From: Meiothermus ruber DSM 1279
Lineage (GTDB): Bacteria; Deinococcota; Deinococci; Deinococcales; Thermaceae
DNA: 64,000 nt
Direction: 5' to 3'
Assembly: GCF_000024425.1 (NCBI RefSeq)
Contig: NC_013946.1
Coordinates: 1,240,001 to 1,304,000 of the forward strand
Part shown: positions 6,265-30,170 of the stretch, in pieces
Position numbering within the stretch: position 1 is the stretch's first letter
Layout: each line of letters begins with the position of its first letter
The notes under the pieces: generated by a model
What the model saw: the letters and a program-made list of their open reading frames with translations, nothing else
What the model was told of the DNA's origin: nothing
Databases searched by the model: none
Position numbers and translations under genes: made by a program

Positions 6265-6339
6265 CCATGCGTCCTGAGGCCACGATTCCCACGGACGGCT
6301 ATTCGAGCTGCGGCAATGAGCTGTATGAGGGGGACTGGG

Positions 6340-9300: not shown

Positions 9301-11482
9301 CCTCAACGTCGTGAACATGCGCAACGTTCCGCCCACCCCGGCCAACTACGCCCAGCGCTCGGGCCGGGCCGGGCGCAGCGGCAGCCCGGCGCTGGTCTTC
9401 ACCTACGCCGCCAGCGGCAACTCCCACGACCAGTACTTCTTCCGCCGCCCCAGGCTGATGGTGGCCGGCGCGGTTTCGCCCCCGCGGCTCGACCTGACCA
9501 ACGAGGAGCTTATCCGCTCGCACCTGCAGGCGGTGTGGCTGGCGGCCACCGGGGCCGACCTGGGAAGCTCGCTGGCGGATATCCTGGAGGTGGAGGGTGA
9601 CGAGCCCACCCTGGCCCTGCGGCCTTCGGTGCGGAATGACCTCCAGCGCCCCGCTGCAGTGCAAGACGCGTTGAAGCGGGCGAAGCGGGTGCTGGCCGAC
9701 CTGATGCCCGAGCTCGAGCAGGCCCCCTGGTACACCCCGGCCTGGGTAGAGGGGGTGATGGAGCAGGCCTACGCCCGCTTCGAGGAGGCCTGCGAGCGCT
9801 GGCGTACCCTGTACAAAGCGGCCCGTGAGCAGTTTCAGGTGCAGAGCCGGGTCATCCTGGACGCCAGCCGCAGCGCCGCTGAAAAAGATCAGGCCCGCCG
9901 CCTGCGCTCCGAGGCCGAGTCGCAGCTCAAGCTGCTGACCGAGACCGGCGAGCTGGCCCAGTCCGACTTCTACTCCTACCGCTACTTCGCCAGCGAAGGC
10001 TTCCTGCCCGGCTACAGCTTCCCCCGCCTGCCGCTATCGGCCTTCATCCCGGCCCGGCGTCGTGTGAGCGACCGCAATGAATTCCTCTCGCGCCCGCGTT
10101 TTCTGGCGATTACCGAGTTCGGTCCTTTCTCGATCCTCTACTACGAGGGCTCAAAATACGTTATCAACCGGGTCATCCTGCCCCCTGGCAGCGAGCAGCA
10201 GCTTCGCACCAGCGCGGTGAAGCGGTGTGAGCACTGCGGCTATCTGCATCCGGTGAATCAGGCGGGGGGGCCGGATCTTTGCATGCGCTGTAAGGCCGAG
10301 CTACCACCGCCCCGCAGCAACCTGCTGCGCATGCAAAACGTCTCCACCATCCGGCGGGAACGCATTAACTCCGACGAGGAGGAGCGCCAGCGCCTGGGCT
10401 ACCAGGTGCTCACCGGCATCTCCTTCCCGCCCCACGGGAGCCAGCCCGCTTTTCAAAGCGCCCAGGTGTACCGGGAGGGCCGGCTCCTGGCCGAGCTCAC
10501 CTTTTCCCAGGCCGCCAGCATCTGGCGCATGAACCTGGGCTGGGCGCAGCGCAAGAACAAGAAGGAGGAGGGGTTCTGGCTTGACCCGGAGCGCGGGTAC
10601 TGGATCAAGCGCCCGGACGACCCCGAGGAACTCGACGAGCAGAACCCCAACAGCCGCCAGACCGTGCAGGTGATACCCTACGTGGAAGACCGCAAAAACG
10701 CCCTGCTCCTGAGGCCGGGGCCCACGCTCGATGAAGTGCAGTTTTACTCGCTGCTCTCTGCCCTCAAGACCGCCATCCAGGTGGGCTACCAGCTCGAGGA
10801 TGGCGAACTGGCCGCCGAGGTTCTGCCCGACGGGGATAACCGGCGCGAGCTTTTGTTCTACGAGGCGGCCGAGGGAGGGGCGGGGGTGCTGCGCCAGCTG
10901 GTCAGTGACACCAAGGCGTTGCCTCGAGTGGCCCGCATTGCCCTGGAAATCTGCCACTTCGATGAAAATGGCGTGGATCAAGGCCGTGCGGCCCACGCCA
11001 GCGAGAGCTGCGAGGCGGCCTGCTACGACTGCCTGATGAGCTACAGCAACCAGCGCATCCACCGCTACCTGGATCGCAAGGCCATCCGGGACTTCCTGCT
11101 CGAGCTTGCCGGCAGCCAGGTGGCCTCCTCCCCGGTGGAAGCCCGCCGCGACGAGCACCTACGGCGCCTGCTGGCGATGTGCGAGTCGAACCTCGAGCGT
11201 GAGTTTCTGGAGTTCCTCGAGGCCCGCCGCCTGGCCCTGCCCAGCCGGGCCCAGGTCTTCATCGAGGAGGCCGCCACCCGGGTCGACTTCCTCTACGACA
11301 GCCAGCGGGCGGTGATCTACGTGGACGGCCCCCACCACCTCTACTCCGAGCGCCGCGCCCGCGACCAGCAGCAGGAGCGCCTGTTGCGCCTGAAGGGTTA
11401 TTCTGTGCTGCGCTTCGCTGCGCACGAGGAATGGGAGGCCAAGGTGCGCGCGCGCCCGGACATCTTTGGAGGTCTTTCGTGA
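6340..11482 (+). pseudogene. DISARM-like helicase-DUF1998-nuclease, frameshifted
   Basis: Restored, this is a protein of about 1,700 residues. Its N-terminal half has an SF2 helicase: Walker A TGTGSGKS ending near residue 118, DELH near residue 229 and TSATM. Two zinc-type Cys clusters (CRECGQEFY, CPCCGVAYG) and the helicase C part (MELGVDISTLN, QRSGRAGRSG) follow. A DUF1998 region has a further cluster (CEHCGYLH, CMRCKAE). A C-terminal DUF559/Vsr-like nuclease domain contains VDGPHHLYSE. It resembles DISARM DrmA and DrmB fused. The frame changes inside an inverted repeat at 8574-8627. The upstream part runs out of frame to 9060; the downstream part could start at GTG 8636. TTG 6340 is chosen for the start because GAGGGGG precedes it (ATG 6316 is possible). 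Confidence 0.75.
8574..8627. repeat. Perfect 54-bp palindrome that breaks the helicase gene
   Basis: Two perfect 24-base arms (8574-8597 and 8604-8627) surround the loop GGCCCA. The outer eight bases of each arm are CCGCGCGG, itself palindromic, so the structure reads as a 38-bp hairpin (8582-8619) flanked by an 8-bp direct repeat. Removing 46 bp (8 + 38) joins ELCRA to APEVRQKV and restores one open frame across the whole helicase gene. Confidence 0.85.
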
Positions 11483-14301
11483 ACAAATCCCTTACCTACC
11501 CCGATGGGGGGGCGAACCACACCCCGGGCTCGCTCATCAAGGCGCGGGGGCGGGAGTGGGTGGTGCTGCCCGAGTCGCAGCCGCCCCTGCTCATCGCCCG
11601 GCCCATCGGCGGCACCGAAGAGGAAATTGCTGGCATCCACACCGAACTGGAAGAGGTCAGTCCCTCCAGCTTCGGGACACCCACCCTGGACGACCTGAGC
11701 GACTACCGCTCGGGGCGCCTGTTGCGGGAGGCGGTGCGCCTGACCTCGCGCAACGTGGCTGGGCCCTTCCGCTCCTTTGGCCGCATTGCGGTGGAGCCGC
11801 GCCCCTACCAGCTGGTGCCGCTCCTGCTGGCGTTGCAGCAAGACCCGGTGCGGCTGCTGATCGCCGATGACGTGGGCATTGGCAAGACCGTGGAAGCCCT
11901 GCTCATCGCGCGCGAGCTGTGGGATCGGGGGGAGATTCGCAGTTTGAGTGTGCTGTGTCCGCCGCACCTGGCCGAGCAGTGGCAGGCCGAGCTCTCCGAG
12001 AAGTTCCACCTCGAGGCCGAGCGGGTGCTCTCTTCCACGGCGGCCCGCCTCGAGCGCGGCCTGCGGGTGGGGGAGACCCTCTTCCAGCGCCACCCCATCA
12101 CGGTGGTCTCGATGGACTTCATCAAAAGCGAGCGCCGCCGCGAGGAGTTCCTGCGCACCGCGCCCGAACTGGTTATTGTGGACGAGGCCCACACCTGCGC
12201 CTACGGCGGGGTGAACCGGGGCAGCCAGCACCAGCGCCACACCTTGGTGGCCCGCCTGGCCGAGCACCCTGAGCGCCACCTCATCCTGGTGACCGCCACC
12301 CCCCACTCCGGCCACGAGGAGGCCTTCCGCTCGCTGCTGGCCCTGCTCGACCCGGCCTTCCGCGAGATGCCCCCTGACCTCAGCCGCGAGGAGGCCGAGG
12401 GCTGGCGGCGGCGGCTGGCCCGGCACATGATTCAGCGCAAGCGGGCCGATATCCGGGGCTACCTGAACGAGGGCACCCCCTTCCCCGAGCGCCTCGAGGC
12501 CGAGGTCAACTACAACCTTTCGCCCGAGTACGGCCGCCTGCTGGACAAGGTGCTGGCCTACGCCCGCGAGCTGGTCAGCGACCCCACGGGCGACCAGCGG
12601 CACCAGCGGGTGCGCTGGTGGGCGGCCCTGGCCCTCTTGCGCTCGGTGGCCTCGAGCCCCGCCGCTGCCGCCCTGGCCCTGCGCAACCGGGCCGCGGTGG
12701 CCGATGCCGAGACCGAGGCCGAGGTGGACGAGCTGGGCGGGCGGATGGTGCTCGACCAGGAGGAGTACGACCAGGAGTTCGACCTCACGCCGGGGGGTGA
12801 GGTGAGCGCCGAGGCCGCCGAGCAGCGCAGGCTGCGCGAGCTGGCCCGCGAGGCCGAGGCCCTGGCCGGGGCCAAGGACCGCAAGCTGCAGAGGGCCATC
12901 GAGCTGGTGAAGGATCTGCTGGCCGAGGGCCACCACCCCATCGTCTTCTGCCGCTTCATCCAGACCGCGGAGTACGTGGCCGGGCACCTGCGGCAGGCTT
13001 TGGGCGCGGGGGTGGCGGTGGAGGCGGTGACGGGCCTTTTGAGCCCGCCCGAGCGCGAGCAGGCCGTGGAGCGGCTGGGCCAACAGCCGGTGCGGGTGCT
13101 GGTGGCGACCGACTGCCTCTCCGAGGGCATCAACCTGCAGCAGTACTTCAGCGCGGTGCTGCACTACGACCTTTCCTGGAACCCCACCCGCCACGAGCAG
13201 CGCGAGGGCCGGGTGGATCGCTACGGCCAGCCGCGCCGCCAGGTCAAGACCCTGACCTACTTTGGGGCCAACAACCCGGTGGACGGGATCGTGCTCGAGG
13301 TGCTGTTGCGCAAGCATAAGGCCATCCGCAGCGCCCTGGGCGTCTCGGTGCCGGTGCCGGTGGACAACGACGCGGTCATCCAGGCCGTGATGCAGAGCAT
13401 GCTGCTCCGGGACACCCGCCGCGCCCAGATGCAGAGTCTGTTCGAGCCCTTCGACGAGCGGGGCTTCGAGGTAGAGTGGCGCAACGCCGCCGAGCGGGAG
13501 AAGCGCTCGCGCACCCTCTTCGCCCAGCACACCATCAGGCCGGAGGAGGTGGCCCGGCAGCTTTTCGAGACCCGCCGGGCGGTGGGCTCGGGGGTGGAGC
13601 TGGAGCGCTTTGTGCAGGAGGCGCTGGAGGTGCACGGGGGCCAGGTGCACGCCCTGGGCGAGGGCCTGTACCGCTTCGACCTGGGGGGGCTGCCCCGCGC
13701 CCTGCGTGACCTGCTGGGCCGCGATAGCCTCACAGGGCGCTTCTCGCTGCCGGTGCAGCCGGGCGAGGTGTACCTGAGCCGCACCCACCCGCTGGTGGAG
13801 ACCCTCTCGAGCTTCCTGCTGGAGGGGGCGCTGGATCCGCTTTCCCAGAGCAAGGCCCGGCGGGCCGGGGTGATCGCCACCGACGCGGTGCGCGATCTCT
13901 CCACCCTGCTGCTGCTGCGCCTGCGCTACCACCTCACCACCACCTCCACCCGCAAGGACAGAACGCGCTGGCAGCAACTGGCCGAGGAGGTGCACGCTGT
14001 GGCCTTCCGCGGCTTCCCCGACGCGCCGGAGTGGCTGGACGGGGCGGAGGTGGAGGCTTTGTGGCAGGCCCGCCCCACCGAGAATCTTTCTTTACCGCAG
14101 GCCCAGGAGTTCGCGGACATGGTGCTGCCGGAGCTGGGGCGGTTGCAGGGCTACCTCGAGGAGGTGGCGCAGAAGCAGGCCAGGCGCTTCGAGGAGGCCC
14201 ACCGCAGCGTGCGCCAGGCCGCCGACCTCAAGCTGCGCTACGAGGTGGAGCCCATCCTTCCGGTGGACGTGGTGGGTGTGTACGTCTATGTCCCGAGGTG
14301 A
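11479..14301 (+). CDS. drmD: SNF2-family helicase, DISARM DrmD-like
   Basis: A 940-residue SWI2/SNF2 ATPase. Walker A DDVGIGKT lies at residues 130-137, the DEAH box is VDEAHTC, LVTATPHSG is motif III, VLVATDCLSEGINLQ motif V and HEQREGRVDRYGQ motif VI. A charged insertion rich in Glu/Ala separates the two helicase halves. The order and length match the DrmD helicase of class 1 DISARM, a phage-defence system combining methylation and restriction. GTG 11479 is chosen because it overlaps the preceding stop (GTGA) and follows GGAGG; the frame is open from 11431. It is coupled to the helicase/DUF1998 gene. The function in DNA translocation is inferred from family. Confidence 0.85.
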   Translation: MNKSLTYPDGGANHTPGSLIKARGREWVVLPESQPPLLIARPIGGTEEEIAGIHTELEEVSPSSFGTPTLDDLSDYRSGRLLREAVRLTSRNVAGPFRSFGRIAVEPRPYQLVPLLLALQQDPVRLLIADDVGIGKTVEALLIARELWDRGEIRSLSVLCPPHLAEQWQAELSEKFHLEAERVLSSTAARLERGLRVGETLFQRHPITVVSMDFIKSERRREEFLRTAPELVIVDEAHTCAYGGVNRGSQHQRHTLVARLAEHPERHLILVTATPHSGHEEAFRSLLALLDPAFREMPPDLSREEAEGWRRRLARHMIQRKRADIRGYLNEGTPFPERLEAEVNYNLSPEYGRLLDKVLAYARELVSDPTGDQRHQRVRWWAALALLRSVASSPAAAALALRNRAAVADAETEAEVDELGGRMVLDQEEYDQEFDLTPGGEVSAEAAEQRRLRELAREAEALAGAKDRKLQRAIELVKDLLAEGHHPIVFCRFIQTAEYVAGHLRQALGAGVAVEAVTGLLSPPEREQAVERLGQQPVRVLVATDCLSEGINLQQYFSAVLHYDLSWNPTRHEQREGRVDRYGQPRRQVKTLTYFGANNPVDGIVLEVLLRKHKAIRSALGVSVPVPVDNDAVIQAVMQSMLLRDTRRAQMQSLFEPFDERGFEVEWRNAAEREKRSRTLFAQHTIRPEEVARQLFETRRAVGSGVELERFVQEALEVHGGQVHALGEGLYRFDLGGLPRALRDLLGRDSLTGRFSLPVQPGEVYLSRTHPLVETLSSFLLEGALDPLSQSKARRAGVIATDAVRDLSTLLLLRLRYHLTTTSTRKDRTRWQQLAEEVHAVAFRGFPDAPEWLDGAEVEALWQARPTENLSLPQAQEFADMVLPELGRLQGYLEEVAQKQARRFEEAHRSVRQAADLKLRYEVEPILPVDVVGVYVYVPR

Positions 14302-14318
14302 GCCGTGCCCTACCTTCG

Positions 14319-14684: not shown

Positions 14685-14899
14685 ACCGCAACCTCGCGCT
14701 CCTCGGCCAGAAAAACCGCGTACTCCAGCGCGGCGTCGATATCCTCTGACTCGAGCTCGGGGTAGTCGCGCAGAATCTCTGCCGGGGTCTGGAAGCGGAG
14801 CTGGTTGAGGATGGTGCCCACGGTGATGCGCGTTCCCCGAATGCAGGGCCGCCCGCCCATGACCAGCGGGTTGAAGGTAATGCGCTCAGACAGCCTCAT
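14681..14899 (-). CDS. DUF433 antitoxin
   Basis: A 72-residue DUF433 protein. The conserved core is RITFNPLVMGGRPCIRGTRI, followed by VGTILNQL and an AEILRDYPELESEDI helix pair. DUF433 proteins are small homeodomain-like DNA-binding antitoxins that pair with PIN-like toxins. The gene overlaps its partner by 4 bp, and its promoter region is the 53 bp shared with the divergent methyltransferase gene. It could therefore repress transcription in both directions, an inference from position. Confidence 0.85.
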   Translation of the reverse strand: MRLSERITFNPLVMGGRPCIRGTRITVGTILNQLRFQTPAEILRDYPELESEDIDAALEYAVFLAEEREVAV

Positions 14900-14952
14900 A
14901 TGTTTATGTTAGCACTCCGGAATCAAGCCCCCACAGAACACCTGAACAACGT

Positions 14953-18962
<4,010 letters not shown>

Positions 18963-18963
<1 letters not shown>

Positions 18964-19065: not shown

Positions 19066-19200
19066 ATGTCGGTTCATCCAGAAGGGGCAACCGAGCTGCT
19101 GTTGGCCCTGGCGACTCCGACGCCCAAGGGCTACTGGGGCGTGCCGGTGCTGGTCTGGGGACGTCCGGGCACGGGCAAGTCTACCGGTTGGTGGGGGTAG
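19066..19200 (+). pseudogene. Truncated MoxR-like AAA+ ATPase
   Basis: Only 44 residues remain: a short N-terminus (MSVHPEGATELLLAL) and the nucleotide-binding loop WGRPGTGKST, then a stop. MoxR ATPases need the Walker B, sensor and lid segments, all missing here. The end overlaps the stop of the minus-strand HepT gene (19181), so insertion of the HepT/MntA pair or a deletion probably removed the rest. An intact MoxR gene stands at 37065-38108. It still has a leaderless-type promoter and an upstream repeat shared with the vWA gene at 20116. Confidence 0.65.
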
Positions 19201-19573
19201 TTGACCCCAAGTCCGCCAGCATTGCCTCAAAGGTTCTCTTGAGCACCGGAATCTGCTTGCGACAAACGGCAAAAACAATCTCGGGGTTTATGTCGAAATA
19301 GTGGTGACTGATAACGTCGCGCATTCCCTTGACCCCCTTCCAGTCCACATCGGGGTACTGAGCCAGTAGCTCGCCCCCAGTGATTTTGTCCAAGTTCTTA
19401 CAGCTCTCGCCGATAGCGATGAGCATCATACCGATGGCGTCGAGCATGTCGTATCCCGCATCGCTCGACACGAAGTCGCTAGCCTGGGAGATGCCCGCTG
19501 CCCGGCGCTCGATGCGGCCAATGGCCGTCAGAATCTGTAAGATAACCTCCCGGATCAACTCACGGTCAGACAT
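19181..19573 (-). CDS. hepT: HepT-type HEPN ribonuclease toxin
   Basis: A 130-residue HEPN-domain protein (DUF86 group). It is all helical, with the RNase motif R-x4-H-x-Y seen in MRDVISHHYFDINPE, and the usual upstream helix MLDAIGMMLIAIGESCKNL. HepT cleaves tRNA or mRNA and is silenced when MntA adds AMP to its tyrosine. The start ATG 19573 overlaps the end of the MntA gene by 8 bp, so the pair is co-transcribed from the minus strand. Its C-terminus overlaps the remnant MoxR gene, which suggests this module arrived there. Confidence 0.85.
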   Translation of the reverse strand: MSDRELIREVILQILTAIGRIERRAAGISQASDFVSSDAGYDMLDAIGMMLIAIGESCKNLDKITGGELLAQYPDVDWKGVKGMRDVISHHYFDINPEIVFAVCRKQIPVLKRTFEAMLADLGSTTPTNR

Positions 19574-19871
19574 AAATGGCCCCGCGCTCGATGCGTGCTT
19601 TTAGGAAGCCGTTCATGAAGGCGGAGTAGGGAATTACATCAACAGGACGCCGGAACCCGGACTCCAGCTCCTCCTTGATATGCACCAGCGCAAAGAGATC
19701 TGGTTCGCTTAACTCGACAACAACATCAATATCGCTGCCAGGCTGCGCCTCACCCTGAGCGAAAGAACCAAACAGCGCGAGGCGGTTCACCCCGTAGCGG
19801 CGGGCAAGCTCTGGTTTGAGCCTGCGTAGTTCGGTGAGGATGGCATCGCGGGTTAGTGGCAGTTTGGTCAT
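19566..19871 (-). CDS. mntA: MntA-type nucleotidyltransferase antitoxin
   Basis: A 101-residue minimal nucleotidyltransferase. The active-site signature GSFAQGEAQPGSDID fits GSx10DxD exactly. MntA antitoxins transfer AMP onto the HepT toxin. ATG 19871 is preferred over the TTG five codons upstream because GAAGGA lies at ribosome-site distance. It is the first gene of the minus-strand pair, and the 240 bp upstream contains copy 2 of the 71-bp repeat reading the other way. The expected role is to keep the co-encoded HEPN toxin inactive. Confidence 0.85.
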   Translation of the reverse strand: MTKLPLTRDAILTELRRLKPELARRYGVNRLALFGSFAQGEAQPGSDIDVVVELSEPDLFALVHIKEELESGFRRPVDVIPYSAFMNGFLKARIERGAIYV

Positions 19872-20010
19872 GGTTCTATCCTTCAAGGTCGTGGCTATTT
19901 ACGTCACAGGAAACAATGTCATCAATACAACCATTGTATGCAGCACGTGTAGCAGGAGCAAGGAGAAAATATGCAAACGCAGGCTCTTGTGAGTGCCTGA
20001 GGTGAGCACT

Positions 20011-20115: not shown

Positions 20116-21822
20116 ATGAGAAAGCGTTACACGGGGTTTGTATTGCCGCTGCTGCTGGCGGTGGCCTGGGCTGCTTGCATCCCCGCGCAACAGCCCCAGG
20201 GCGCGCCCCCACCCATCGAGCGGTACCGCTTTGTGTTTCTGGTAGATACCTCTGGCTCCATGATGGGCCTGGGGGACGGGAAGGCGGTTATTTTTCCCAA
20301 GGTGCAGGCCGAGCTGGTGCGTTTTCTGAGAACCCTGCCCGCCTCGGAGGTGGTGTTTGTGCCCTTCCACCAGGGGCCCCAGGGGGAGCGCCGCTTCCGC
20401 CTGCCCGATGAGCTGGGTCAGGCGGTGGCCTATGTACAGAACCTGAAGGCCAACGGACAGAATACCTGGATCTATCGCACCCTGATGAGCGTTTTGCGCT
20501 CCACCTCCTCCAGAGAAGGGGTGGCCACCATCTACTACATCTTTACCGACGGCATTGACAACGACCGCCAGGGGCCTTACCGCATGGCCGACGTGGTGCG
20601 AACCCTTCGGCTCCAGCAAGGGCCCTACGACTGGGTGTACTACATCGCCCTGGGGGTTTCCGTCCCCGAAGAGGTACGGCAGGGTTTGGGCAGCCTACCT
20701 CGTACCCGCATCCAGGAGGCGGGGGTGGGGGAGGTGCCCACCCTGGGGGCCTACACCTTCAAGCCGGCGGTGCTCCAGCTTGGTAACCTGCTGCAAACCC
20801 CCGAGGCCCGGGTGGAGGTGGCCCTCGAGGCCCAGGGACGGCCCCGGCCTCTGCGCCTGGTGGTGGACGATGCGAGCCTGCAGAAGCAGGGGGCCTTCCT
20901 GGAAGTGTCCCCCAACCGCCTGGAGGCGGGCAACCGCACCCTGACCTTCCGCCTGCGGGGCCAGGGCCTCCGGGAAGGGGAGTACACGGCCTGGCTCTGC
21001 CTCGAGGCCGCCGAGGGCACCCTGGTGCGCCCGGAGGCCATCCCGCTGCGCTTCGCCTACCACCCCCCTGCTGCCTACACCCTGACCCCCGAGAACCCCC
21101 CCGAGCGGCTGGAGCTGCGCCCTGGGGAGAGCGCCACCCTCCAGTACCGGCTGGAGGGCAACGCCTGGGCCCGGGAGCCCCTCTCCCTGAACATCGAGGT
21201 TCCCCAGGGTCTCGAGGCCACCCTGAACGGGCAGGAGGGCCCTGTGGGGCTGAAGCCGGGGGAAAGGCTCGAGGTGCGCCTCACCAACCAGGGCCTGACC
21301 CCCGGGCAGAGCGTGCAGCCCAGCTTCCAGGCCCAGGCCCCCTCCGGCAGCCAGCTCGGCCCCCTCCCCCCCATGCCCCCTGTGACCCAGCCCAAGACCC
21401 TGTGGGAGAGGCTTCTGGACTACTGGTGGCTTTTGCTCCCCCTTCTTTTGCTCCTCCTCTATCTCCGTTCTCGTTGGTTGGCTGCCCAAAGGCCCTGGGG
21501 CGAAGCCCAATACGTCGGTCCTCCTCCCGACTGTCCGCAAGAACGCTTGAGGCTGAAGAGGCGGGTGGACCTGGGGCGGTTGGACAGGAACCTCCAGGGC
21601 GTGCAGATCTATCCCCAGGGCGGTGAGGTGGGCCTGACCCTCCCTCCCCACCTGAGCGCAAAGAGCCTGCTGGGGGGACGGAGACCGTTGCCCTTGGAAA
21701 ACGGCGAAACGTTCTCGTACGGCACACCCGTTTACTTCTACGGGGACAATCCTAACCAAGAGATTGCAAGCCTTACCGTTTACCCCTTAAGAGGGGAGTC
21801 TTATGGAAACGAAAAAGCTTAA
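20116..21822 (+). CDS. Membrane vWA protein, first gene of tubulin operon
   Basis: A 568-residue exported protein. A signal sequence, GFVLPLLLAVAWAAC, ends in a lipobox-like cysteine, so it may be a lipoprotein. Residues about 35-200 form a von Willebrand A domain with MIDAS DTSGSM and YIFTDGIDN. Two beta-sandwich-like domains follow, then a membrane helix (YWWLLLPLLLLLLYLRSRW) and a cytoplasmic tail of about 110 residues. The frame is open further up, but ATG 20116 fits the signal peptide. It overlaps the tubulin-like gene by 20 bp, so coupling is tight. The topology could carry an outside signal to the cytoplasmic GTPase; that is an inference. Confidence 0.85.
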   Translation: MRKRYTGFVLPLLLAVAWAACIPAQQPQGAPPPIERYRFVFLVDTSGSMMGLGDGKAVIFPKVQAELVRFLRTLPASEVVFVPFHQGPQGERRFRLPDELGQAVAYVQNLKANGQNTWIYRTLMSVLRSTSSREGVATIYYIFTDGIDNDRQGPYRMADVVRTLRLQQGPYDWVYYIALGVSVPEEVRQGLGSLPRTRIQEAGVGEVPTLGAYTFKPAVLQLGNLLQTPEARVEVALEAQGRPRPLRLVVDDASLQKQGAFLEVSPNRLEAGNRTLTFRLRGQGLREGEYTAWLCLEAAEGTLVRPEAIPLRFAYHPPAAYTLTPENPPERLELRPGESATLQYRLEGNAWAREPLSLNIEVPQGLEATLNGQEGPVGLKPGERLEVRLTNQGLTPGQSVQPSFQAQAPSGSQLGPLPPMPPVTQPKTLWERLLDYWWLLLPLLLLLLYLRSRWLAAQRPWGEAQYVGPPPDCPQERLRLKRRVDLGRLDRNLQGVQIYPQGGEVGLTLPPHLSAKSLLGGRRPLPLENGETFSYGTPVYFYGDNPNQEIASLTVYPLRGESYGNEKA

Positions 21823-24523
21823 ACGAACGGTCCTTATCGGCCTGGGCGGCACGGGCAAGTGGGCCCTTCTCCACGCCAAGAAGAAGCTGCTCGAGGCGTT
21901 TGGCGAGGAGCCCCCTCTGGTCAAGTTTCTGCTCATCGACACCACTGCCGCCAACAACGATCACCTGCTCACCGCCGATGGCAAGAAGGCCCGCCTGCAG
22001 GCCAGCGAGATCCTCCACATCGAGGCCCGGGGGGCGAGTCTCCTGCCCAAGGTGCACGACGAGATCCGCGAGTGGTTCCCGCCCAAGGCCGACCTCAAGG
22101 CCAACATCCTGGCCGGGGCCGGGCAGATCCGGGCCCTGGGCCGCCTGGCCCTCTTCGCCAACGCCAGCCTGGTTTACGAGAACCTGCGCGACCTGCTGGC
22201 CCTGGCCCGCGACTACAAGGACGAGCGCCCCAGCGGGGAGCGCCGCTACATCTACGAGCCCTACACCCCCCACCTCACGGTGGCGGTGGTGGGCTCCCTG
22301 GCGGGGGGCACGGGCTCCGGTACCTTCCTGGACGTGGCCTTCCTCCTGCGCCAGCTCATGAAGGACGAGGACCAGCTCTTCGGCTACTTCCTCCTGCCCG
22401 ATATCTACACCAACCGCCCGGGCACCCAGAACGTGGAGGCCAACGCCTACGGGGCCCTGAAGGAGCTGGATCACTTCATGAACTTCAAGGAGAACCTGAG
22501 CTACACCTTGGGTGGGCGGCGCATTCAGGTGGAAAAAAAGCCCTTCGATATGGTTTTTCTGGTCAACCGGCAGAACCGCGCCGGGAAAACCTTCAACGAG
22601 GTGGACGACCTGACCGAGCTGCTGGGTCTCGGGCTTTTCCTCCAGGCGGGCCCCATGGGCAAGGAGCAGGCCGATGTGTTCGACAACATCGCCCACCAGC
22701 TCAACGAGCAGAAGGGGCGCTACTACGGCAAGACCGCCCACTACGCCAGCTTTGGGGCGGCGGAGCTGCGCTTTGAGCTCGAGAAGGTGCTGGGGGAGGC
22801 GCGAAAGCAGGCCACGGCCAGGGCCATCCAGGAGCTCCTGGCCGAGAACCCCCCCTGGGAGCCCGCCGGACTCCGACAGGCCATCGAGGAGGCCCTGGGG
22901 CAGAGCTCCCCGGAGCCGGAGGATCTTCCCAGGGTGCGGGGCGCCTCGAGCCCGGAGGACAACGCGCAGGTTATAGCAGAGCTCGAGGCGGCCCTCAACC
23001 TCCTCAAGAACCGCGCCAGGGAGACCGCCCGGAGGGCCTGGGAAGAAGTCCGCCTCGACCCCTGGCCCCACCTGGAAAAGGCCTTCCTCGACTACCCCCT
23101 AGGAAGCCTGGTTCGGGGGATGGAGCGACTGAGGGAGGAGCTGAACAAAAGCAAAGATGACCTCAGGGCCAGAGCGGAGGAAAGCGAGCAAAACCTTCAG
23201 GAAAGCCTGGATTCGCTAAAGAAGCGGTTTGGCGCGTCCCAACCCAAGGGATTCCGCCAGCTCTGGAACCCGTCCCCACCCGTGCCCCTTCTTACCAGCG
23301 CCCGCGTCAGCGATACGCTGAATCTGGCCTGGGATCTGGGCGTTGACCAGGCCCGCGCGGAGCTGGCCCAGGAACTCCTGCGGCAGTTGGAAGCAACCCT
23401 CGAGCGCATCAAAACGCTGCGCCTGCGCCTGAGCAACCACACGCAGGCCGCTCCTTCCGCCGCCTCCGCCCCCGCCCTGAACTGGGATCGCGCCCCCTTC
23501 ACCCTCACCCTGCCCCCGCCCTACCTGGCCCAGGAGGCCCAGGCCGTCCAGGAGGGGCGGGTGGAGCTTAGTTCCCTGAGGCAGAAAGGCCTCCGGGCCC
23601 TGCTGGAAAACACCGAGGAGGTTTTGCAGTCGCTGAGGCTGGAGGAGGTCGGCCTCTCGGACTGGCTGCGCGGGGCGCTGCAAAATGGGGACGAGACCCT
23701 GAAGGAGTCGATCAAGCGGGCTTTCCGCGAGCTGGATCACCTGGCAGCCCCCGCCTGGGACTACCAGGACGCCTGGGTTTCCAACCCCAACCTGGGCTAC
23801 CGGGAGATGGTTTCCATCCTGGGGGTGGGGGAGAAGGACGGCACCCACGATCCCCTCGAGGTCTCCGAGGATATCCTGAATATCCTGGCAGGCAACATCC
23901 ACGAGCGGAGCAAGCTCCAGAAGGTGTCCACCGGGGACGGGCGGCGGGTGCTGCTTTACCGCATCGAGGCCTCCATTCCAGCCTTCGCCCTGCGGGGCGT
24001 TGAGGCCTACCGGGAGAAGTACCAGGCCCTTTCCAAAGACCGTAGCTTCCACCTTCACCGCTCCTGGGAGGAGGGCCTCGAGGATCTCTTCCCCCTGCCC
24101 GACCCAGGGGAGGCCGCCCGGATATGGACCCGGGCCCGCCTGCTGGGCATCATCCGCGAGGACAAAGGGGAGTACAGCTACGAGGACACCCGCGAGGTGG
24201 GCGGACGACGCATCGCCCTGGGCAGCACGCCCGGGGAAGCCTTTGAGGCTTTTGCCCAAGACTTCTTCGCCTTTAAGGAGGTGGAGGGCCAGGTGGTGAA
24301 AAAGGATAGGGCCTTGCGGCGGGAGCGGGAGCGCCTGCAGGCGTACCTGAGCAAGGTGCAGGAAGCCCTGGAAAGCCGCGAGGGCCTGCTCCAGAGCCGC
24401 GACTCCTGGATGGAGAAAGACCTGGCGATGTTCGAGCGAGAAAAAGCGGCCCTGCAAGCGCTTCAGGAGGAACTCCAGAGCTACAACCCCGATAGCGGCA
24501 AAGACACCTTCCCCTCCCTCTAG
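21803..24523 (+). CDS. Tubulin-like (Tubulin_2) GTPase
   Basis: A 906-residue protein of the tubulin/FtsZ superfamily. The N-terminal strand and loop are TVLIGLGGTGKWALLHAKK, and the nucleotide signature AGGTGSGT lies at residues 167-174, matching the tubulin G-box. Residues about 1-330 form the GTPase domain. Beyond about 340 the protein is mostly charged helix with coiled-coil character, ending in a Lys/Glu-rich helix. This family is known from bacteria in operons with vWA proteins and has been proposed to act at membranes. GAGGGGAG precedes ATG 21803. The gene lies between the membrane vWA gene and an unknown coiled-coil gene. Polymer formation is untested. Confidence 0.85.
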   Translation: METKKLKRTVLIGLGGTGKWALLHAKKKLLEAFGEEPPLVKFLLIDTTAANNDHLLTADGKKARLQASEILHIEARGASLLPKVHDEIREWFPPKADLKANILAGAGQIRALGRLALFANASLVYENLRDLLALARDYKDERPSGERRYIYEPYTPHLTVAVVGSLAGGTGSGTFLDVAFLLRQLMKDEDQLFGYFLLPDIYTNRPGTQNVEANAYGALKELDHFMNFKENLSYTLGGRRIQVEKKPFDMVFLVNRQNRAGKTFNEVDDLTELLGLGLFLQAGPMGKEQADVFDNIAHQLNEQKGRYYGKTAHYASFGAAELRFELEKVLGEARKQATARAIQELLAENPPWEPAGLRQAIEEALGQSSPEPEDLPRVRGASSPEDNAQVIAELEAALNLLKNRARETARRAWEEVRLDPWPHLEKAFLDYPLGSLVRGMERLREELNKSKDDLRARAEESEQNLQESLDSLKKRFGASQPKGFRQLWNPSPPVPLLTSARVSDTLNLAWDLGVDQARAELAQELLRQLEATLERIKTLRLRLSNHTQAAPSAASAPALNWDRAPFTLTLPPPYLAQEAQAVQEGRVELSSLRQKGLRALLENTEEVLQSLRLEEVGLSDWLRGALQNGDETLKESIKRAFRELDHLAAPAWDYQDAWVSNPNLGYREMVSILGVGEKDGTHDPLEVSEDILNILAGNIHERSKLQKVSTGDGRRVLLYRIEASIPAFALRGVEAYREKYQALSKDRSFHLHRSWEEGLEDLFPLPDPGEAARIWTRARLLGIIREDKGEYSYEDTREVGGRRIALGSTPGEAFEAFAQDFFAFKEVEGQVVKKDRALRRERERLQAYLSKVQEALESREGLLQSRDSWMEKDLAMFEREKAALQALQEELQSYNPDSGKDTFPSL

Positions 24524-24525
24524 CC

Positions 24526-26574
24526 ATGGTGCACCCCACCCTACTGCTCGTCTTTCCTAGTGCCCGCGCCCTGGTGGAGCCCCTTTATGCAGTATGGGAG
24601 AAGAGGCTGGGCCCTAAGGCCCTGGCCCTGGAGAGAGCCCAGCCGCAAGCCTGGCGGAAAGAGTTCTGGCGGCTTCTGAACCAGGGCCGCCTTCTGACCC
24701 TGCATGCGCGGGGTTTCCCCCCAGACCCCGCCCCTACCCTGGTGGTGGTGGCCAGTCCCCTGGATGGGGAGCTCGAGGCCACCCTGGCAGAGCTGGAGAC
24801 ATTTTTCCTGGGTGCGGGAAGCCAGGGCCTCGAGGCTCGGTTGCACCTGGTGCTTCTCCTGCGCAACCAAGAGGAGTTCCGGGCCGCCGGTCGCTTTCCC
24901 CCAGACCCCAACCACCCCCTACCCAGCCGGGTCTGGCCCCTGGCCCTGTGGAACCGCCAGGGGGAGCATCTGGCCCGGGAGGAGTACCTCCAGGTATGGG
25001 TACAGTATTTTGTGGAGGCCCTGCTCCACACCAACGCCCCCCTCCAGCCCACCCGGGGCCGGGACTGGATGGGGCTGGGCATCGCCTGCATGAAGCGCTC
25101 ACAACCCCAGGCCCACGACCTGGTTCCGGGGCTCTGGGAGGCCATCAAGGGGGCCGGTGAGGGGTACTCGCCGACCCTCAGCCTCCCCCCGCCCCCAGGA
25201 AGGCCCTCCGAGGCCAGGTATCCCCCAAAGCCAGAGCGCCAGGACTGCTTACGCTACCCCGAGTGGCAGGGCTCGCTCTGGGAGAGGGCCCTGCAGGCGC
25301 TGTCTCAGGAAGAGGAGGCGGCTCTGGAGGAGGCCCTGCTATCCCTGGAGAACCCCATTCGCTTTTCTGGCGTAGACCAGGCCCTTTGCCAGGGCCCCAA
25401 GGCCCTGGAGGCCACGCTGACGGCCCTCCGCGGGGCCCAGGCCGAACTCCAAAGCAGGCGGCAGGCCGTGCTGGCGGAGCTGGATGAGGGCCTGGGGCTC
25501 CGGGGCCAGCGGGCCCGTTATCGTAGGCTGAAGGCCCGCAAAGACCAGGGACGACCCGTTGACACAGAGGAGTTCAACCGCCTCGAGGCCCTCTTCCAGG
25601 GGCTGGACGGGCTTTTGGAGGAAGGGCGCCTGGATGCGCTTTTGGAGAAGGACGGGGAGGCCCGGATCATTCAGAACAAACTGAATGACCTAAAAGCTGA
25701 GCTGGCGGAAGGGCAGGAGGCCTGGAACAAGCAGGAGGCTGTACCACCACCTCCGCCTCGAGGGCTCCGGGGTTTTTGGGAGCGGTTTCGCCCCCGCCCC
25801 ACCGCTTCAGAAACCCCCTCCAGCCGCAAGCGGCTGTGCGACGAGGCCTGGAGCATCCTGGGGGAAGCTCATGAGCTGCACAAGGCTTACGCTGACAGGC
25901 TGGGGAAGTACCGGCGCATCTACCTGGAGATCAGTTACCTGAACGTGCTGCTCCCTGCCCTGGCCGAGGAGGAGCGCCAGCTCCAGGAAACGCTCGAGCG
26001 CATCCAGTCTTTTAGCCCACGGCCTCCCTCGAGAACCCACAACCCCCTGGTGGTTCGGCTTACCGGGCCCCGCCCCCCCCGCTCGGCCTACCGCCAGGAG
26101 GCCGCGCGGCTTTTGCAGGATGGGATTCTGGAGCATCTGTGGTACGGAGACGACCGGGAAGCCCTGGAAGAGGAGCTGCTGGAGGGGGCCGAGCGCCTCC
26201 TGGCCCACACCCCTCCCCCCGAGCCCCTGAACCCCTCGCCCGAGGCCTGGGCCCTCCTGGTGAAGGCGGCCACCCCCCAGGTGCCGGTGCGCACCTGGCC
26301 GGAGCACCGCGTCTACGCCTATGTGCTGGGAAGTGCCCAGGGACAGCGCTGGGGGGAACCTTACGCGGAAGAACCTGGGCGGGAGGGGGAGGTGGTGCTC
26401 TTCCGGCTCCTTTATCCCTTGACGGCTGAGGATCTGTGGCGGGAAGGGGCGGAGCCTTTCCCTGAGGAGGGGGAGGAGGTCTCTGCGCCAGAAGCCTCTT
26501 CACAAGGGGACGCTCCTACAGATGCTCTCCGACCCAACTCGCTTCTCGACGAATTGCAGGGGCTTTTGAGATGA
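24526..26574 (+). CDS. Unknown protein of the tubulin operon
   Basis: A 682-residue protein that I do not recognise. The N-terminal 180 residues are an alpha/beta domain (LLLVFPSARALVEPLYAVW; TLVVVASPLDGE; LHLVLLLRNQEEF) and look like a small globular fold. Residues about 245-440 are long charged helices with coiled-coil character, including a Gln/Glu/Arg-rich stretch. A proline-rich linker precedes another helical region and a C-terminal tail. It starts 2 bp after the tubulin gene stop and is followed after 12 bp by the BrxL-like gene. It may be an adaptor between the GTPase and the ATPase; nothing in the sequence proves this. Confidence 0.75.
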   Translation: MVHPTLLLVFPSARALVEPLYAVWEKRLGPKALALERAQPQAWRKEFWRLLNQGRLLTLHARGFPPDPAPTLVVVASPLDGELEATLAELETFFLGAGSQGLEARLHLVLLLRNQEEFRAAGRFPPDPNHPLPSRVWPLALWNRQGEHLAREEYLQVWVQYFVEALLHTNAPLQPTRGRDWMGLGIACMKRSQPQAHDLVPGLWEAIKGAGEGYSPTLSLPPPPGRPSEARYPPKPERQDCLRYPEWQGSLWERALQALSQEEEAALEEALLSLENPIRFSGVDQALCQGPKALEATLTALRGAQAELQSRRQAVLAELDEGLGLRGQRARYRRLKARKDQGRPVDTEEFNRLEALFQGLDGLLEEGRLDALLEKDGEARIIQNKLNDLKAELAEGQEAWNKQEAVPPPPPRGLRGFWERFRPRPTASETPSSRKRLCDEAWSILGEAHELHKAYADRLGKYRRIYLEISYLNVLLPALAEEERQLQETLERIQSFSPRPPSRTHNPLVVRLTGPRPPRSAYRQEAARLLQDGILEHLWYGDDREALEEELLEGAERLLAHTPPPEPLNPSPEAWALLVKAATPQVPVRTWPEHRVYAYVLGSAQGQRWGEPYAEEPGREGEVVLFRLLYPLTAEDLWREGAEPFPEEGEEVSAPEASSQGDAPTDALRPNSLLDELQGLLR

Positions 26575-26586
26575 GGAAGGTGGGCA

Positions 26587-28182
26587 GTGGTGCTTTTGGA
26601 AAAAGCTGAACAAGCGTTCCCGGGCCATATCCTGGACAAAGGCCTGATTCAGGAAGAGATTTTCTACCGCATCCCCCGCTACGTGGTGGAGTACCTTCTG
26701 GCCCGCATGGGGGGCCACCACGAGGCCGTGGAAAAGGTGCGCAAGCTCCTGGAGGAGCGCTACCTGGGCCCCGGCCACGAGCAGTGGATCAAGGACCAGC
26801 TCCTGCGCGCGGGCCGGTTTGTCCTCATCGATCGCCTCGAGGTGCAGGTGGATCTGCAGACCGGCACCTACCGGGGCCGGATCCCCAGCCTGGGGGAGCA
26901 CCCCTTGGAGGTTCGCCCCCGCCTGGCGGAGGAGCACCCGGGGGTGTTGTACGGGATGTGGGGCACCCTGGAGCTCCTTTACGACCCGGCCACCCGCAGG
27001 GTGCGCCTGGGGCAGTTCATCCCCTTTGAGGCCCACCTCAAGGGCCTCGAGCCCTTCCAGCGGGGCCGGCAGGCCTTCACCGAGGAGGAGTGGACAGATT
27101 TCCTTCTGGGGAGCGTGGGCATCAACCCGGAGGCCCTGAGCGAGCGGCAAAAGCTCCTCTACCTGGCCCGGCTGGCCCCCCTGGTGGAGCCCAACCTGCA
27201 CTACCTCGAGCTGGGCCCCCGCCAGACCGGGAAGACCTACCTCCTGCGCAACACCTCGGCCGAGGCCTTTGTGGTCTCCGGGGGCAAGGTGAGCCCGGCG
27301 GTACTGTTCTACAACCAGCTCACCCGTCGCCCCGGCCTCATCCCCACCTACGAGGTGGTGATCTTTGACGAGATCGCCCACACCGCCTGGGAGGATCCCT
27401 CGGTGATTTCCATCCTGAAGGACTACATGGAATCCGGCCAGTTCAGCCGGGGTGGGAAAACCCTGGCTGCGCAGGCCTCGCTGGTCTTCCTGGGCAACGC
27501 CGACGACCCCACCCCGCCCGTGACCCGCGTTCTGCCCAATGGGCTGCGGGGGGATACGGCCTTCCTGGATCGCATCCACGGCCTGCTCCCCGGCCATGAG
27601 TTCCCCAAGGTCACCCCCGAGCTCCTCTACCAGGGCCCGGCCCTGGTGGTGGACTACCTGGCCGCGGCCCTGCGCGGCCTGCGCCCCCTGGCCTTCTCTG
27701 TGGAAGTGAGCCTGCCCTCGGGGTACACCCAGCGGGACATCCGCGCGGTGCGCAAGTGGCTTTCCGCTTTGCTCAAGCTCCTTTACCCTCACCGGGCCTG
27801 GCCAGAGGGGCGGGTGAAGGAGCTTATGGACTTCGCCCTCGAGCTGCGGGAACGGGTTTACGAGGAACTCCATCGCCTGAACCCGGGCGAGTTCCCCTCG
27901 CGCAAGCCCCAGGCCCCGCCACCCCGCCTCGAATGGGCGGGGCTCCACGCCCTGCTGCCTGCAGAGTACACCGGCCTTTTTCAAGCCCTGCAGGAGGCGG
28001 GCCTGCCCCCGCCGGAGGAAGGCCCTGAGGATCTCACGGAAGAGGGGCGGGTTATCGGGCAGAGCCTGGCCCGCTGGGGCCAGAAGCGCCTGGTGCCTCC
28101 AGGGCTGGGGGCACACGGCCTCGAGGTTCACCCGGATACCCCGGTGGTGGATATACGTACTTACCTGGAGGGAGGGCTATGA
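26587..28182 (+). CDS. BrxL-like AAA+ ATPase
   Basis: A 531-residue protein of the BrxL family. The Walker A loop GPRQTGKT lies at residues 210-217. The family pattern continues with FVVSGGKVSPAVLFYNQL, Walker B VVIFDEIAH, ISILKDYMESGQFSRG and ASLVFLGNADD. BrxL of BREX assembles as a DNA-bound ring resembling MCM-type ATPases. This protein is shorter than typical BrxL proteins and its Lon-like C-terminus looks reduced. No PglZ, BrxC or other BREX genes are in the window, so it is a BrxL outside BREX. The GTG start follows AGGAAGGTGG. The stop overlaps the RelE-UvrD start by 4 bp (ATGA). Confidence 0.85.
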   Translation: MVLLEKAEQAFPGHILDKGLIQEEIFYRIPRYVVEYLLARMGGHHEAVEKVRKLLEERYLGPGHEQWIKDQLLRAGRFVLIDRLEVQVDLQTGTYRGRIPSLGEHPLEVRPRLAEEHPGVLYGMWGTLELLYDPATRRVRLGQFIPFEAHLKGLEPFQRGRQAFTEEEWTDFLLGSVGINPEALSERQKLLYLARLAPLVEPNLHYLELGPRQTGKTYLLRNTSAEAFVVSGGKVSPAVLFYNQLTRRPGLIPTYEVVIFDEIAHTAWEDPSVISILKDYMESGQFSRGGKTLAAQASLVFLGNADDPTPPVTRVLPNGLRGDTAFLDRIHGLLPGHEFPKVTPELLYQGPALVVDYLAAALRGLRPLAFSVEVSLPSGYTQRDIRAVRKWLSALLKLLYPHRAWPEGRVKELMDFALELRERVYEELHRLNPGEFPSRKPQAPPPRLEWAGLHALLPAEYTGLFQALQEAGLPPPEEGPEDLTEEGRVIGQSLARWGQKRLVPPGLGAHGLEVHPDTPVVDIRTYLEGGL

Positions 28183-30167
28183 CGGGTAGTGCATCTGTTT
28201 GCATTTCGGAGAGTTTCTATAAGGGTAAGGATCGCCTTAATCAGATGGAACGGGGCCAGATAATGGATGCCCTTCTCAGCTTCTTCCAGGATCCTAGCTA
28301 CCCTAGCTTGAGGCTGGAGAAAATCCATAATGACTTCTGGTCTATTCGAGCAAGCCGCGATCTGCGCATCATTCTTACTCGACAAGCCCAGGTGTGGATA
28401 GCGGCTTATTGCGGTCATCACGATGAGGCTTACCGCTGGGCGGAGCGTCGCCGGGTGGAGGTTCACCCCCAAACCGGTGATATCCAGATTGTTCGCATAC
28501 CCGAGGTGGATACACCATCCAGGGAGCCTCCTGCCAATGCTCCTCTAGCCCGCTTCGACGAGGACTACCTCCTGAGCCTGGGGGTGCCCCAGGATTACGT
28601 AAAGCCCCTGCGCTACGCCACCGAGGATGGGGTTCTGGAGCTGCTGGACGGGCTTCCTCAGGCGATTCAGGAACGCATTTTAGATCTTCTGGATGGCAAA
28701 CCTGTGATTCCGCCGCCCAAAATCCAGGTTCAAAACGCGGAGGAGCTCCTGGCCCATCCCATGGCTCAGCGGCAGTTCGTCCTGCTCAGAAGCCTCCAGG
28801 AGGTGCGCCAGGCCCTGCAAGGCTCCTGGGAGGCCTGGCACTTCTTCCTGCATCCCTTGCAGCAGGAGGTGGTGGGGGCCCGCTTTGGGGGGCCGGCCCG
28901 GGTGACGGGCGGGGCGGGCACGGGTAAGACCGTGGTGGCGATTCACCGCGCCCGCACCCTGGCCCAGCGCTACCCACAGGCGCGCATCCTCCTCACCACC
29001 TTCAACAAGGGCCTGGCCCGGAAGCTTAAAGTCGCCCTCAAGGGTCTGGCCGGGGAGGAACTCCCCAACGTTTGGGTGGATCACCTGCACAACCTGGCCC
29101 TGCGCCTCCACGAGGAGGTTGCTGAGCCGGTGCAGATCTGGACGGAGGAAAAATACCGTCCCATCCTGGAAAAGCTATGCCAAGGCCTGCCCTACAGCTC
29201 GGGTTTCCTCCTCTCCGAGTGGGAGATGGCCGACGCCTGGGGCCTGTACATCTGGGAGGCCTACCGGGGCTTTTCCCGCGAGGGCCGGGGCACCCCCCTG
29301 AGCGCCCGGGAGCGTCAGGCCCTTTTTGAGGTCTTCCAGCGGGTTTGGGAGACCCTGCGCGCCCAGGGGGCCGCCACCTTTAGCGGGGTCTGCCACCGGG
29401 TGCGCGCCGCCCTGGAGGAAGGGCACCTGCCCCGCTTCCGCGCGGTGGTGGCCGACGAGACCCAGGACTTCGGCCCCGCCGAGCTCATGCTCCTGCGGGC
29501 CCTGGCCGAGGAGGGGGAGGACGACCTCTTCCTCACCCTCGACCCCGCCCAGCGGATCTACCGGGGCCCCACCTCCTGGCGGGCGCTGGGCCTCGAGGTG
29601 CAGGGGCGCTCCCGCAGGCTTCGGGTCAACTACCGCACCACCCGGGAGATCGGGGAGCTGGCGGAGCGGACGCTTCCCTCCCAGGTGGAGGGGGAGGCGC
29701 GGGGGAGCCTGGCCCTCCTCCGGGGCCCCACACCGGAGCAAAGAGGCTTTAACCGGGAGGAAGAGGCCCTGAAGGAGCTTTTACGCTGGGTTCGCTGGCT
29801 CTTGGGCCAGGGTCTGGAGCCCCGCCAGATTGCCGTTTTGGCCCGGGTGCACAAGTTGGCAGAGTCGGTGGGGAAGCGTTTGCTGGCAGAAGGCCTCCCC
29901 GCTCAAAAGCTGGATGAAGACGGGGAAGGGGTCTGGTACGGAACGGTGCATGCGGCCAAGGGCCTGGAGTTCCGGGCAGTGGCCCTATTCGGGGCCAGCG
30001 CTGACCTGTTCCCCTTGAAAATCCTCCTGAATAAGGCCGCCGACCTTCAAGAAAAGGCCCTGGTGGAGGAGAAGGAGCGCAGCCTGCTGTACGTGGCCCT
30101 CTCCCGGCCCCGGGAGTACCTCTGGGTGGGTTACTGGGGTGAGCCCAGCCCCTACCTACCTTCCTAA
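28179..30167 (+). CDS. RelE-like domain fused to UvrD-type helicase
   Basis: A 662-residue fusion. Residues about 1-100 look like a RelE/ParE-type toxin fold (GQIMDALLSFFQDP, FWSIRASRDLRIILTRQ, VWIAAYCGHHDEAYRWA). After a short helical linker comes an SF1 helicase with GGAGTGKT at residues 244-251, VVADETQDFG as motif II, VNYRTTREIGE as motif IV and TVHAAKGLEF as motif V. The C-terminal YVALSRPREYLWV is motif VI. Fusions of this kind are found near toxin and defence genes. The start overlaps the BrxL-like stop. The stop TAA (30165-30167) abuts an IS element whose target duplication AAGAT includes its last two bases. Confidence 0.85.
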   Translation: MTGSASVCISESFYKGKDRLNQMERGQIMDALLSFFQDPSYPSLRLEKIHNDFWSIRASRDLRIILTRQAQVWIAAYCGHHDEAYRWAERRRVEVHPQTGDIQIVRIPEVDTPSREPPANAPLARFDEDYLLSLGVPQDYVKPLRYATEDGVLELLDGLPQAIQERILDLLDGKPVIPPPKIQVQNAEELLAHPMAQRQFVLLRSLQEVRQALQGSWEAWHFFLHPLQQEVVGARFGGPARVTGGAGTGKTVVAIHRARTLAQRYPQARILLTTFNKGLARKLKVALKGLAGEELPNVWVDHLHNLALRLHEEVAEPVQIWTEEKYRPILEKLCQGLPYSSGFLLSEWEMADAWGLYIWEAYRGFSREGRGTPLSARERQALFEVFQRVWETLRAQGAATFSGVCHRVRAALEEGHLPRFRAVVADETQDFGPAELMLLRALAEEGEDDLFLTLDPAQRIYRGPTSWRALGLEVQGRSRRLRVNYRTTREIGELAERTLPSQVEGEARGSLALLRGPTPEQRGFNREEEALKELLRWVRWLLGQGLEPRQIAVLARVHKLAESVGKRLLAEGLPAQKLDEDGEGVWYGTVHAAKGLEFRAVALFGASADLFPLKILLNKAADLQEKALVEEKERSLLYVALSRPREYLWVGYWGEPSPYLPS

Positions 30168-30170
30168 GAT

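Follow-up and report, generated by a model that had tools for sequence, protein, structure and literature searches.

A cluster of five tightly packed genes occupies positions 20116-30167 of a 64,000-nucleotide stretch of the Meiothermus ruber DSM 1279 genome (here called the window). The first four encode a vWA protein with a transmembrane (TM) helix (G1), a Tubulin_2 GTPase (G2), an orphan coiled-coil protein (G3) and a homologue of BrxL (G4), and these four are inherited together as a conserved core that is separate from BREX. The fifth gene (G5) encodes a RelE-UvrD fusion which, judged from its sequence, is the ArmD protein of ARMADA type II. In several genomes the core is physically joined to ARMADA type II genes, and its BrxL carries a C-terminal domain shared with the ARMADA helicase ArmC. 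With a probability of about one half, the core co-operates with restriction of the ARMADA type, its fifth neighbour being ArmD, along a path that would lead from envelope sensing through a tubulin/G3 assembly and BrxL to ArmD. The association of core and ARMADA in hot-spring bacteria hints at a so far undescribed kind of immunity in which a cytoskeleton assists.

The conserved four-gene core

All five open reading frames (ORFs) lie on the forward strand, with spacings of -20 (G1/G2), +2 (G2/G3), +12 (G3/G4) and -4 bp (G4/G5), which agree with the overlaps and gaps listed in an earlier interpretation of the window made from its letters alone (the sequence-only reading). Hidden Markov model (HMM) searches likewise uphold its assignments to vWA, Tubulin_2, BrxL and UvrD and its view of the third protein as an unrecognised coiled-coil protein; the RelE-like part of the fifth is weak but backed. 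G3 is found in 12 of the 111 Deinococcota genomes, and the close clade of tubulins occurs in exactly the same 12, one further genome having a distant tubulin only. The order vWA, tubulin, G3, BrxL is kept wherever the contig is complete and undisrupted, both in these 12 genomes and on mapped plasmids of four species, Meiothermus taiwanensis, Thermus oshimai, Allomeiothermus silvanus and T. thermophilus. BrxL is always the fourth gene, and spacing between core genes ranges from -32 to +42 bp across loci, save where an insertion sequence (IS) intervenes; IS copies interrupt or truncate the core in A. silvanus and T. thermophilus. Bacterium HR30 has this four-gene set too, 1/345 among the genomes sampled from the phylum of HR30. 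Pairwise distance matrices of G1 to G4 agree closely (r=0.94-0.98), and the four genes almost certainly constitute a functional unit.

Co-location in other genomes had been named as a test of a single five-gene unit, and in the 12 Deinococcota genomes and HR30 it held for four of the genes. These four do not vary; the fifth often accompanies them, and its place and strand differ between loci. RelE-UvrD as an invariant fifth gene was rejected, as it is missing from genomes G026 and G001 at the cut-off used and none lies near the core of HR30. Viral contigs searched with the tubulin profile and phage records searched with G3 gave no match, and a scan for promoters and terminators around the core gave no signal exceeding shuffled controls.

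G1 (20116..21822, +; VWA PF00092, E=1e-5) is predicted from an alignment of 11 loci to possess a signal peptide, an extracytoplasmic vWA domain, beta-rich domains, one C-terminal TM helix and a small beta-rich cytosolic tail. A longer ORF starting with GTG at 19993 is also possible, and the homologues favour the start at 20116. The metal ion-dependent adhesion site is intact in the alignment, with DxSxS...T...TDG invariant, and conserved cysteines together with the signal peptide give the protein an extracytoplasmic look. The sequence-only reading had called it lipoprotein-like; the canonical lipobox is not conserved among the homologues, which resemble proteins with a type I signal peptide and a C-terminal TM helix. 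G2 (21803..24523, +) matches the Tubulin_2 profile (PF13809, E=9e-61), carries the GTP-binding glycine motif and has a long helical or coiled-coil C-terminal half. Its motifs GLGGTGK and GGTGSGT/I are conserved; the glycine loop is kept in 10/10 aligned sequences, being GGTGAGI in HR30, and in most sequences a conserved tail ends in DxFPSL (about 24490-24520 in the window).

G3 (24526..26574, +) has no match in Pfam, NCBIfam, PADLOC or PHROGs. It consists of an N-terminal alpha/beta domain, a long coiled coil, a flexible linker and a conserved C-terminal peptide; an AlphaFold2 model from a shallow alignment is confident only at residues of about 1-130 and 290-400. The extreme C-terminal peptide RxNxLLDEL (about 26535-26571) is kept in 13/13 sequences and may act like a docking peptide. 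The tails of both G2 and G3 look like the C-terminal docking peptides of FtsZ-type proteins. The N-terminal domain of G3 is at most a possible degenerate tubulin: an alignment by eye and a first profile match (P=4e-4 over 24 columns) fell to controls, a domain-only profile run scored 14.2 with the best shuffle at 21.3, and the fold matches Tubulin, CetZ, PhuZ and BtubA with Z of 6.9-7.9, level with unrelated Rossmann-like folds. No G3 homologues were detected beside other Tubulin_2 genes (Azospirillum, Deinococcus).

G4 (26587..28182, +) is a short BrxL with a BrxL_N OB region and an AAA+ ATPase domain (PF13337, E=1e-92; PF20442, E=8e-20; TIGR02688 above cut-off). Walker A, GPRQTGK[TS], and the Walker B DE are intact in 13/13 sequences. 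Published accounts place BrxL only in BREX types 1 and 4 (PMC10164562, PMC12839542), and the purified protein encircles DNA as an ATP-dependent ring (PMC10164562). The sequence-only reading saw no other BREX genes around this BrxL, and wider searches agree. PglZ (PF08665) has no match in the window genome and, among the 12 core genomes, only one in G024, on another contig. The 13 tubulin-linked BrxLs form one clade (support 100/99), with the BrxLs of BREX-1 and BREX-4 each separate in the tree. Other inspected BrxL genes of Deinococcota stand in BREX-like settings, with a PglZ neighbour in G092 and a cysteine desulfurase neighbour, as in type 4, in G027 and G033; BrxL in plasmid records adjoins PglZ in every informatively annotated context inspected, one record having hypothetical proteins only. 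A PADLOC and NCBIfam scan of proteins from the locus gave no BrxC family match, and BrxA and BrxB are not among the BrxL neighbours (vWA, tubulin, G3, ArmD), the scan having used no dedicated sensitive models for these two. The core is therefore not a BREX variant, since the window genome has no PglZ and the core BrxLs have a clade of their own; the contexts of BrxL elsewhere point the same way.

ArmD, ARMADA genes and the BrxL/ArmC tail

ARMADA was defined in a 2025 preprint (Bell et al., PMC12458937; not peer-reviewed) by the YprA helicase ArmC, the BrxHII-like helicase ArmA and the PglX-like methylase ArmB, to which type II adds ArmD, a fusion of a GajB-like helicase with a RelE-like domain. 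In E. coli, ARMADA II gives protection that depends on all four Arm genes (PMC12458937). G5 (28179..30167, +) has the same architecture, a RelE-like domain fused to a GajB/UvrD-like superfamily 1 helicase (UvrD, E=3e-17). Its RelE-like part matches the PHROG 'RelE-like toxin' over residues 7-86 (E=7e-4) and, against PDB profiles, only HigB killers at E of 0.1-0.3; the same fusion is known for ArmD. An E. coli plasmid carries a cluster with ARMADA-II gene order, and G5 is 31% identical over its full length to the product of the fourth gene there. The sequence-only reading knew no named system with this gene set, and literature searches combining tubulin with BrxL, vWA or DISARM found no paper that describes it as a whole, though its RelE-UvrD component does belong to a named system.

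In A. silvanus (L009) the core leads on, without a change of strand, into ArmA-ArmB-ArmC-ArmD in strict order (SNF2, methyltransferase, YprA and RelE-UvrD at 25482-38718+), and the same succession with one extra ORF between ArmB and ArmC occurs in the Meiothermus genome G031 (L033). ARMADA-II genes likewise adjoin the core in T. thermophilus SNM3-3, G024, G061 and G064 (loci L010 with L122, L030/L032, L036 with L116, and L041). Only ArmD is found near BrxL in the window, M. KatS3mg071, M. taiwanensis, T. oshimai, G071 and G030. Both ArmD (9/12 core genomes against 12/99 others, p=9e-6) and relatives of ArmB (10/12 against 13/99, p=1e-6) are enriched with the core. ArmD is promiscuous, being present without the core in 12 Deinococcota genomes. 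Outside ARMADA, ArmD-like RelE-UvrD genes close Res/Mod restriction operons on plasmids of Rhizobium (L119 8158-18064) and Pseudomonas (L121 10022-18082). A gene for an NYN-domain nuclease lies between ArmA and ArmB in the ARMADA II of T. thermophilus (L010 22350-23063; L117 4627-5340).

The core BrxL possesses no Lon-like domain; about 80 extra residues follow its AAA+ domain instead (27919..28182, +, in the window). At 43-57% identity they match the very end of ArmC in A. silvanus, G031 and G024 (L032), and an HMM scan of the loci also finds the tail in ArmC of G063, G061, both T. thermophilus strains and, weakly, G010. Twelve loci have the BrxL tail, and in each of them ArmD or ARMADA-II genes are close by (12/12); it is absent in the three with neither beside the core, HR30, G026 and G001 (0/3). 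On ArmC, the tail goes with an adjacent ArmD in all loci but L101 (G063), which has the tail and no ArmD; other ArmC proteins without an adjacent ArmD, that of the window included, have no tail. On the simplest inference, the tail would dock ArmD, or an Arm complex containing ArmD, and the Thermaceae BrxL clade may have acquired it to plug into the partner of ArmC. The tail of E. coli ArmC, an inactivated Vsr-like domain, is 33% identical to it over 51 columns, with 7/200 shuffles as good, and this is suggestive only of a remote version of the same tail.

ARMADA-like genes overlooked by the sequence-only reading lie just upstream of the core. Positions 6316-18963 show the order of ARMADA type I (YprA, BrxHII-like, PglX-like), assigned by gene order and family matches. 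The YprA protein (ArmC) comes as two ORFs that differ in frame (6316-11482), as it does in L108 and L109, three genomes in all, and this split recalls DrmA/DrmB of DISARM. The N-terminal half (6316..9060, +) is a YprA/DruE-like helicase (PADLOC DruE, E=5e-51), and family scans find Helicase_C, MZB/DUF1998 and a DUF559 Vsr-like nuclease in the C-terminal half (9062..11482, start approximate, +). They are followed by an ArmA-like SNF2 helicase of BrxHII/DrmD/RapA type (11431..14301, +; NF038317 DISARM_DrmD, E=2e-93, under its cut-off; PADLOC DpdE/DrmD) and an ArmB-like N6-adenine methyltransferase of PglX/DrmMI type (14953..18963, +; PADLOC DrmMI, E=3e-58; Eco57I, E=7e-16). A HepT/MntA pair separates this set from the core, with HepT (HEPN) at 19181..19573 (-; PF01934, E=2e-19) and an MntA-type nucleotidyltransferase antitoxin at 19566..19886 (-; PF01909, E=5e-16). 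The window ArmD follows BrxL and not a type-II ArmC, the window ArmC lying >16 kb upstream.

Possible function and rival explanations

An anti-invader function of the core is highly probable. Its coupling to ArmD or ARMADA in Thermaceae is a likely one, and the particular mechanism of sensing and scaffolding is put forward tentatively, by analogy with Zorya (PMC11890865), with tubulin-vWA conflict systems (PMC7159879) and with the BrxL ring formed in vitro (PMC10164562). The extracytoplasmic vWA protein would sense an envelope disturbance or a phage-surface ligand where DNA enters, and its cytosolic tail would nucleate GTP-dependent assembly of tubulin and G3 at the membrane. This assembly would concentrate BrxL, possibly via the conserved C-terminal peptide of G3, and BrxL would close as an ATP-dependent ring on the incoming DNA. 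The BrxL tail would then dock the partner that ArmC uses, most likely ArmD. Either ArmD or the neighbouring set of methylase, helicase and nuclease would unwind and destroy unmodified DNA, or an RNase would be released, self-marking being provided by the methylase. Such a chain might amount to a new kind of immune machine, in which a vWA sensor, a tubulin-family scaffold at the membrane (G2, possibly with G3 as a degenerate partner) and a BrxL clamp on incoming DNA serve interchangeable restriction effectors through the domain shared with ArmC; we regard this as possible rather than probable. No earlier defence system powered by a cytoskeletal GTPase is known to us. The sequence-only reading had proposed a membrane-sensing, GTP-driven defence ending in attack on DNA or RNA; the defence part gains from the strong defence context, while the mechanism stays at the level of plausibility.

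Several observations weigh against so close a partnership. The function of every member is predicted from sequence, and the vWA ligand, filament formation and tail docking are putative. Tail-bearing BrxLs form one clade, so that the 12/0 contrast reflects few events and not 15 independent ones. Relatives of the type-I-like ARMADA of the window, at 80-90% identity, lie in G026 and G043 on contigs other than that of the core, for which reason its adjacency to the core may be incidental. T. thermophilus SNM1-7 and SNM3-3 form a strain pair (plasmid loci L010, L122 and L117): in SNM3-3 the tubulin gene is truncated, and in SNM1-7 the core has been lost at an IS junction that falls on the stop codon of BrxL. 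ARMADA can do without the core: SNM1-7 keeps ArmABCD after this loss, and ARMADA II also works in E. coli without it (PMC12458937). Conversely, the core stands without adjacent ARMADA genes or ArmD in HR30, G026 and G001. Each thus occurs without the other, and the coupling is therefore frequent, not obligate. The known distribution of the core is also narrow, covering Thermales and one other genome in a wide collection scanned with a single-sequence query, which may miss distant relatives.

The same three loci are compatible with a self-standing defence system of sensor, cytoskeletal GTPase and BrxL effector, in which BrxL alone would be a DNA roadblock or remodeller and ARMADA or ArmD a mere frequent neighbour in the island. 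The presence of other modification systems beside the core, a DUF1156 methyltransferase with HEPN-DUF499 in M. taiwanensis and HsdM/HsdS-like ORFs (by eye) in G071, also speaks for it. The domain common to BrxL and ArmC and the non-random enrichment of ArmD and ArmB imply instead a molecular link in the Thermaceae clade, and independence of the core appears rather doubtful. Tubulins encoded by phages and plasmids serve to segregate DNA or to position it, and several core loci are on large plasmids, as would suit a TubZ-like machine for replicon maintenance with a membrane anchor and a DNA-binding ring. The core is chromosomal in the window genome, however, which is a single 3.1 Mb contig; G2 matches Tubulin_2 and no TubZ family; and the genes are confined to 12/111 species, in islands rich in defence genes, with BrxL and ArmD being proteins of restriction systems. 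Such a role is very unlikely, and equally so is that of a vWA/tubulin scaffold for envelope or heat stress, swept into defence islands by chance. An extracytoplasmic vWA protein and a cytoskeletal GTPase could serve envelope repair, and the known carriers are largely thermophiles, but a stress scaffold fits poorly with patchy presence, with BrxL as the constant fourth gene and with a BrxL tail common to an ARMADA helicase.

The place of BrxL in a conserved unit alongside a tubulin GTPase and a sensor-like membrane protein makes it a portable part outside BREX and offers a route to BrxL action without BREX. The BrxL/ArmC tail ties BREX-type defences to those of ARMADA type in a concrete way that lends itself to experiment. 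Should the tubulin scaffold prove true, cytoskeletal polymers would join the devices of bacterial immunity.

Neighbouring genes and known systems

Other genes of the window recur in related islands. A second vWA protein, apparently soluble, is encoded beside the core in three loci (window 4819-6057, +; L031 4337-5470; L042 7446-8684), and its gene lies immediately upstream of G1 in G024 and near BrxL in G001. A TROVE (Ro60-like) gene (window 2634-4103, +) is found also in L008, L009, L031, L006, L086 and L101, frequently accompanied by a WYL regulator, a DinG/RecQ-type helicase and a gene for a small YbjN-like protein; this set, encountered both near the core and in its absence, has the look of an island module of its own. 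Convergent to ArmD (31059-35785, -) are an AddA-like UvrD protein and a 742-residue protein with no Pfam match, possibly its AddB-like partner, and L043 has a similar pair. A MoxR-type AAA ATPase with a DUF2201 vWA/metallopeptidase (35776-38138, -) has its counterpart near the core of T. oshimai pTHEOS01 (L008 36425-38733). On the M. taiwanensis plasmid (L007 2748-12519), a helicase, a DUF1156 methylase and a Swt1-HEPN/DUF499 ATPase are directly upstream of the core.

Compared with known systems, the core shares parts with several. ARMADA type II as described in the preprint (PMC12458937) has no tubulin, vWA or BrxL component, and the window ArmD lacks type-II ArmABC neighbours; the ArmCAB-like genes upstream of it are type I-like. 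DISARM class 1 is not indicated, as YprA best matches DruE and not DrmA and no PLD gene is present among the proteins scanned. The helicase part of ArmD is GajB-like as in Gabija; the model for the OLD nuclease GajA matched no locus protein scanned. A set of the BREX-Related type 1 (DUF499/DUF1156; PMC12839542) and Hma kind stands beside the core in M. taiwanensis; it was not seen beside the core elsewhere and is not part of it. The core has no MoxR, as found in MoxR-vWA ternary systems, the MoxR/DUF2201 pair being a separate one about 7 kb off on the opposite strand.

Tubulin with a membrane vWA protein is a recurrent theme in predicted conflict systems (Kaur et al. 2020, PMC7159879). The core resembles the GAP1-N2 GTPase systems in having a tubulin with a helical C terminus and a membrane vWA protein, and differs from them by its BrxL and its restriction context; TRAFAC GTPase, GAP1 and FNIII found no Pfam match among the 18 window proteins scanned, and this was not a genome-wide search. 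Zorya, often co-located with ARMADA and Druantia in E. coli (PMC12458937), offers a works-like analogy, with a membrane complex whose long structure extends into the cytoplasm and with a nuclease effector that is separate from it (PMC11890865); no ZorA or ZorB homologue was found, and the core would have a GTPase in place of the ion motor. BREX types 1 and 4 are alike in their BrxL homologue, short as in type 4, and in the methyltransferase-type modules often nearby, while the core BrxL is set apart by an ArmC-type tail in place of the Lon-like or HKD domain.

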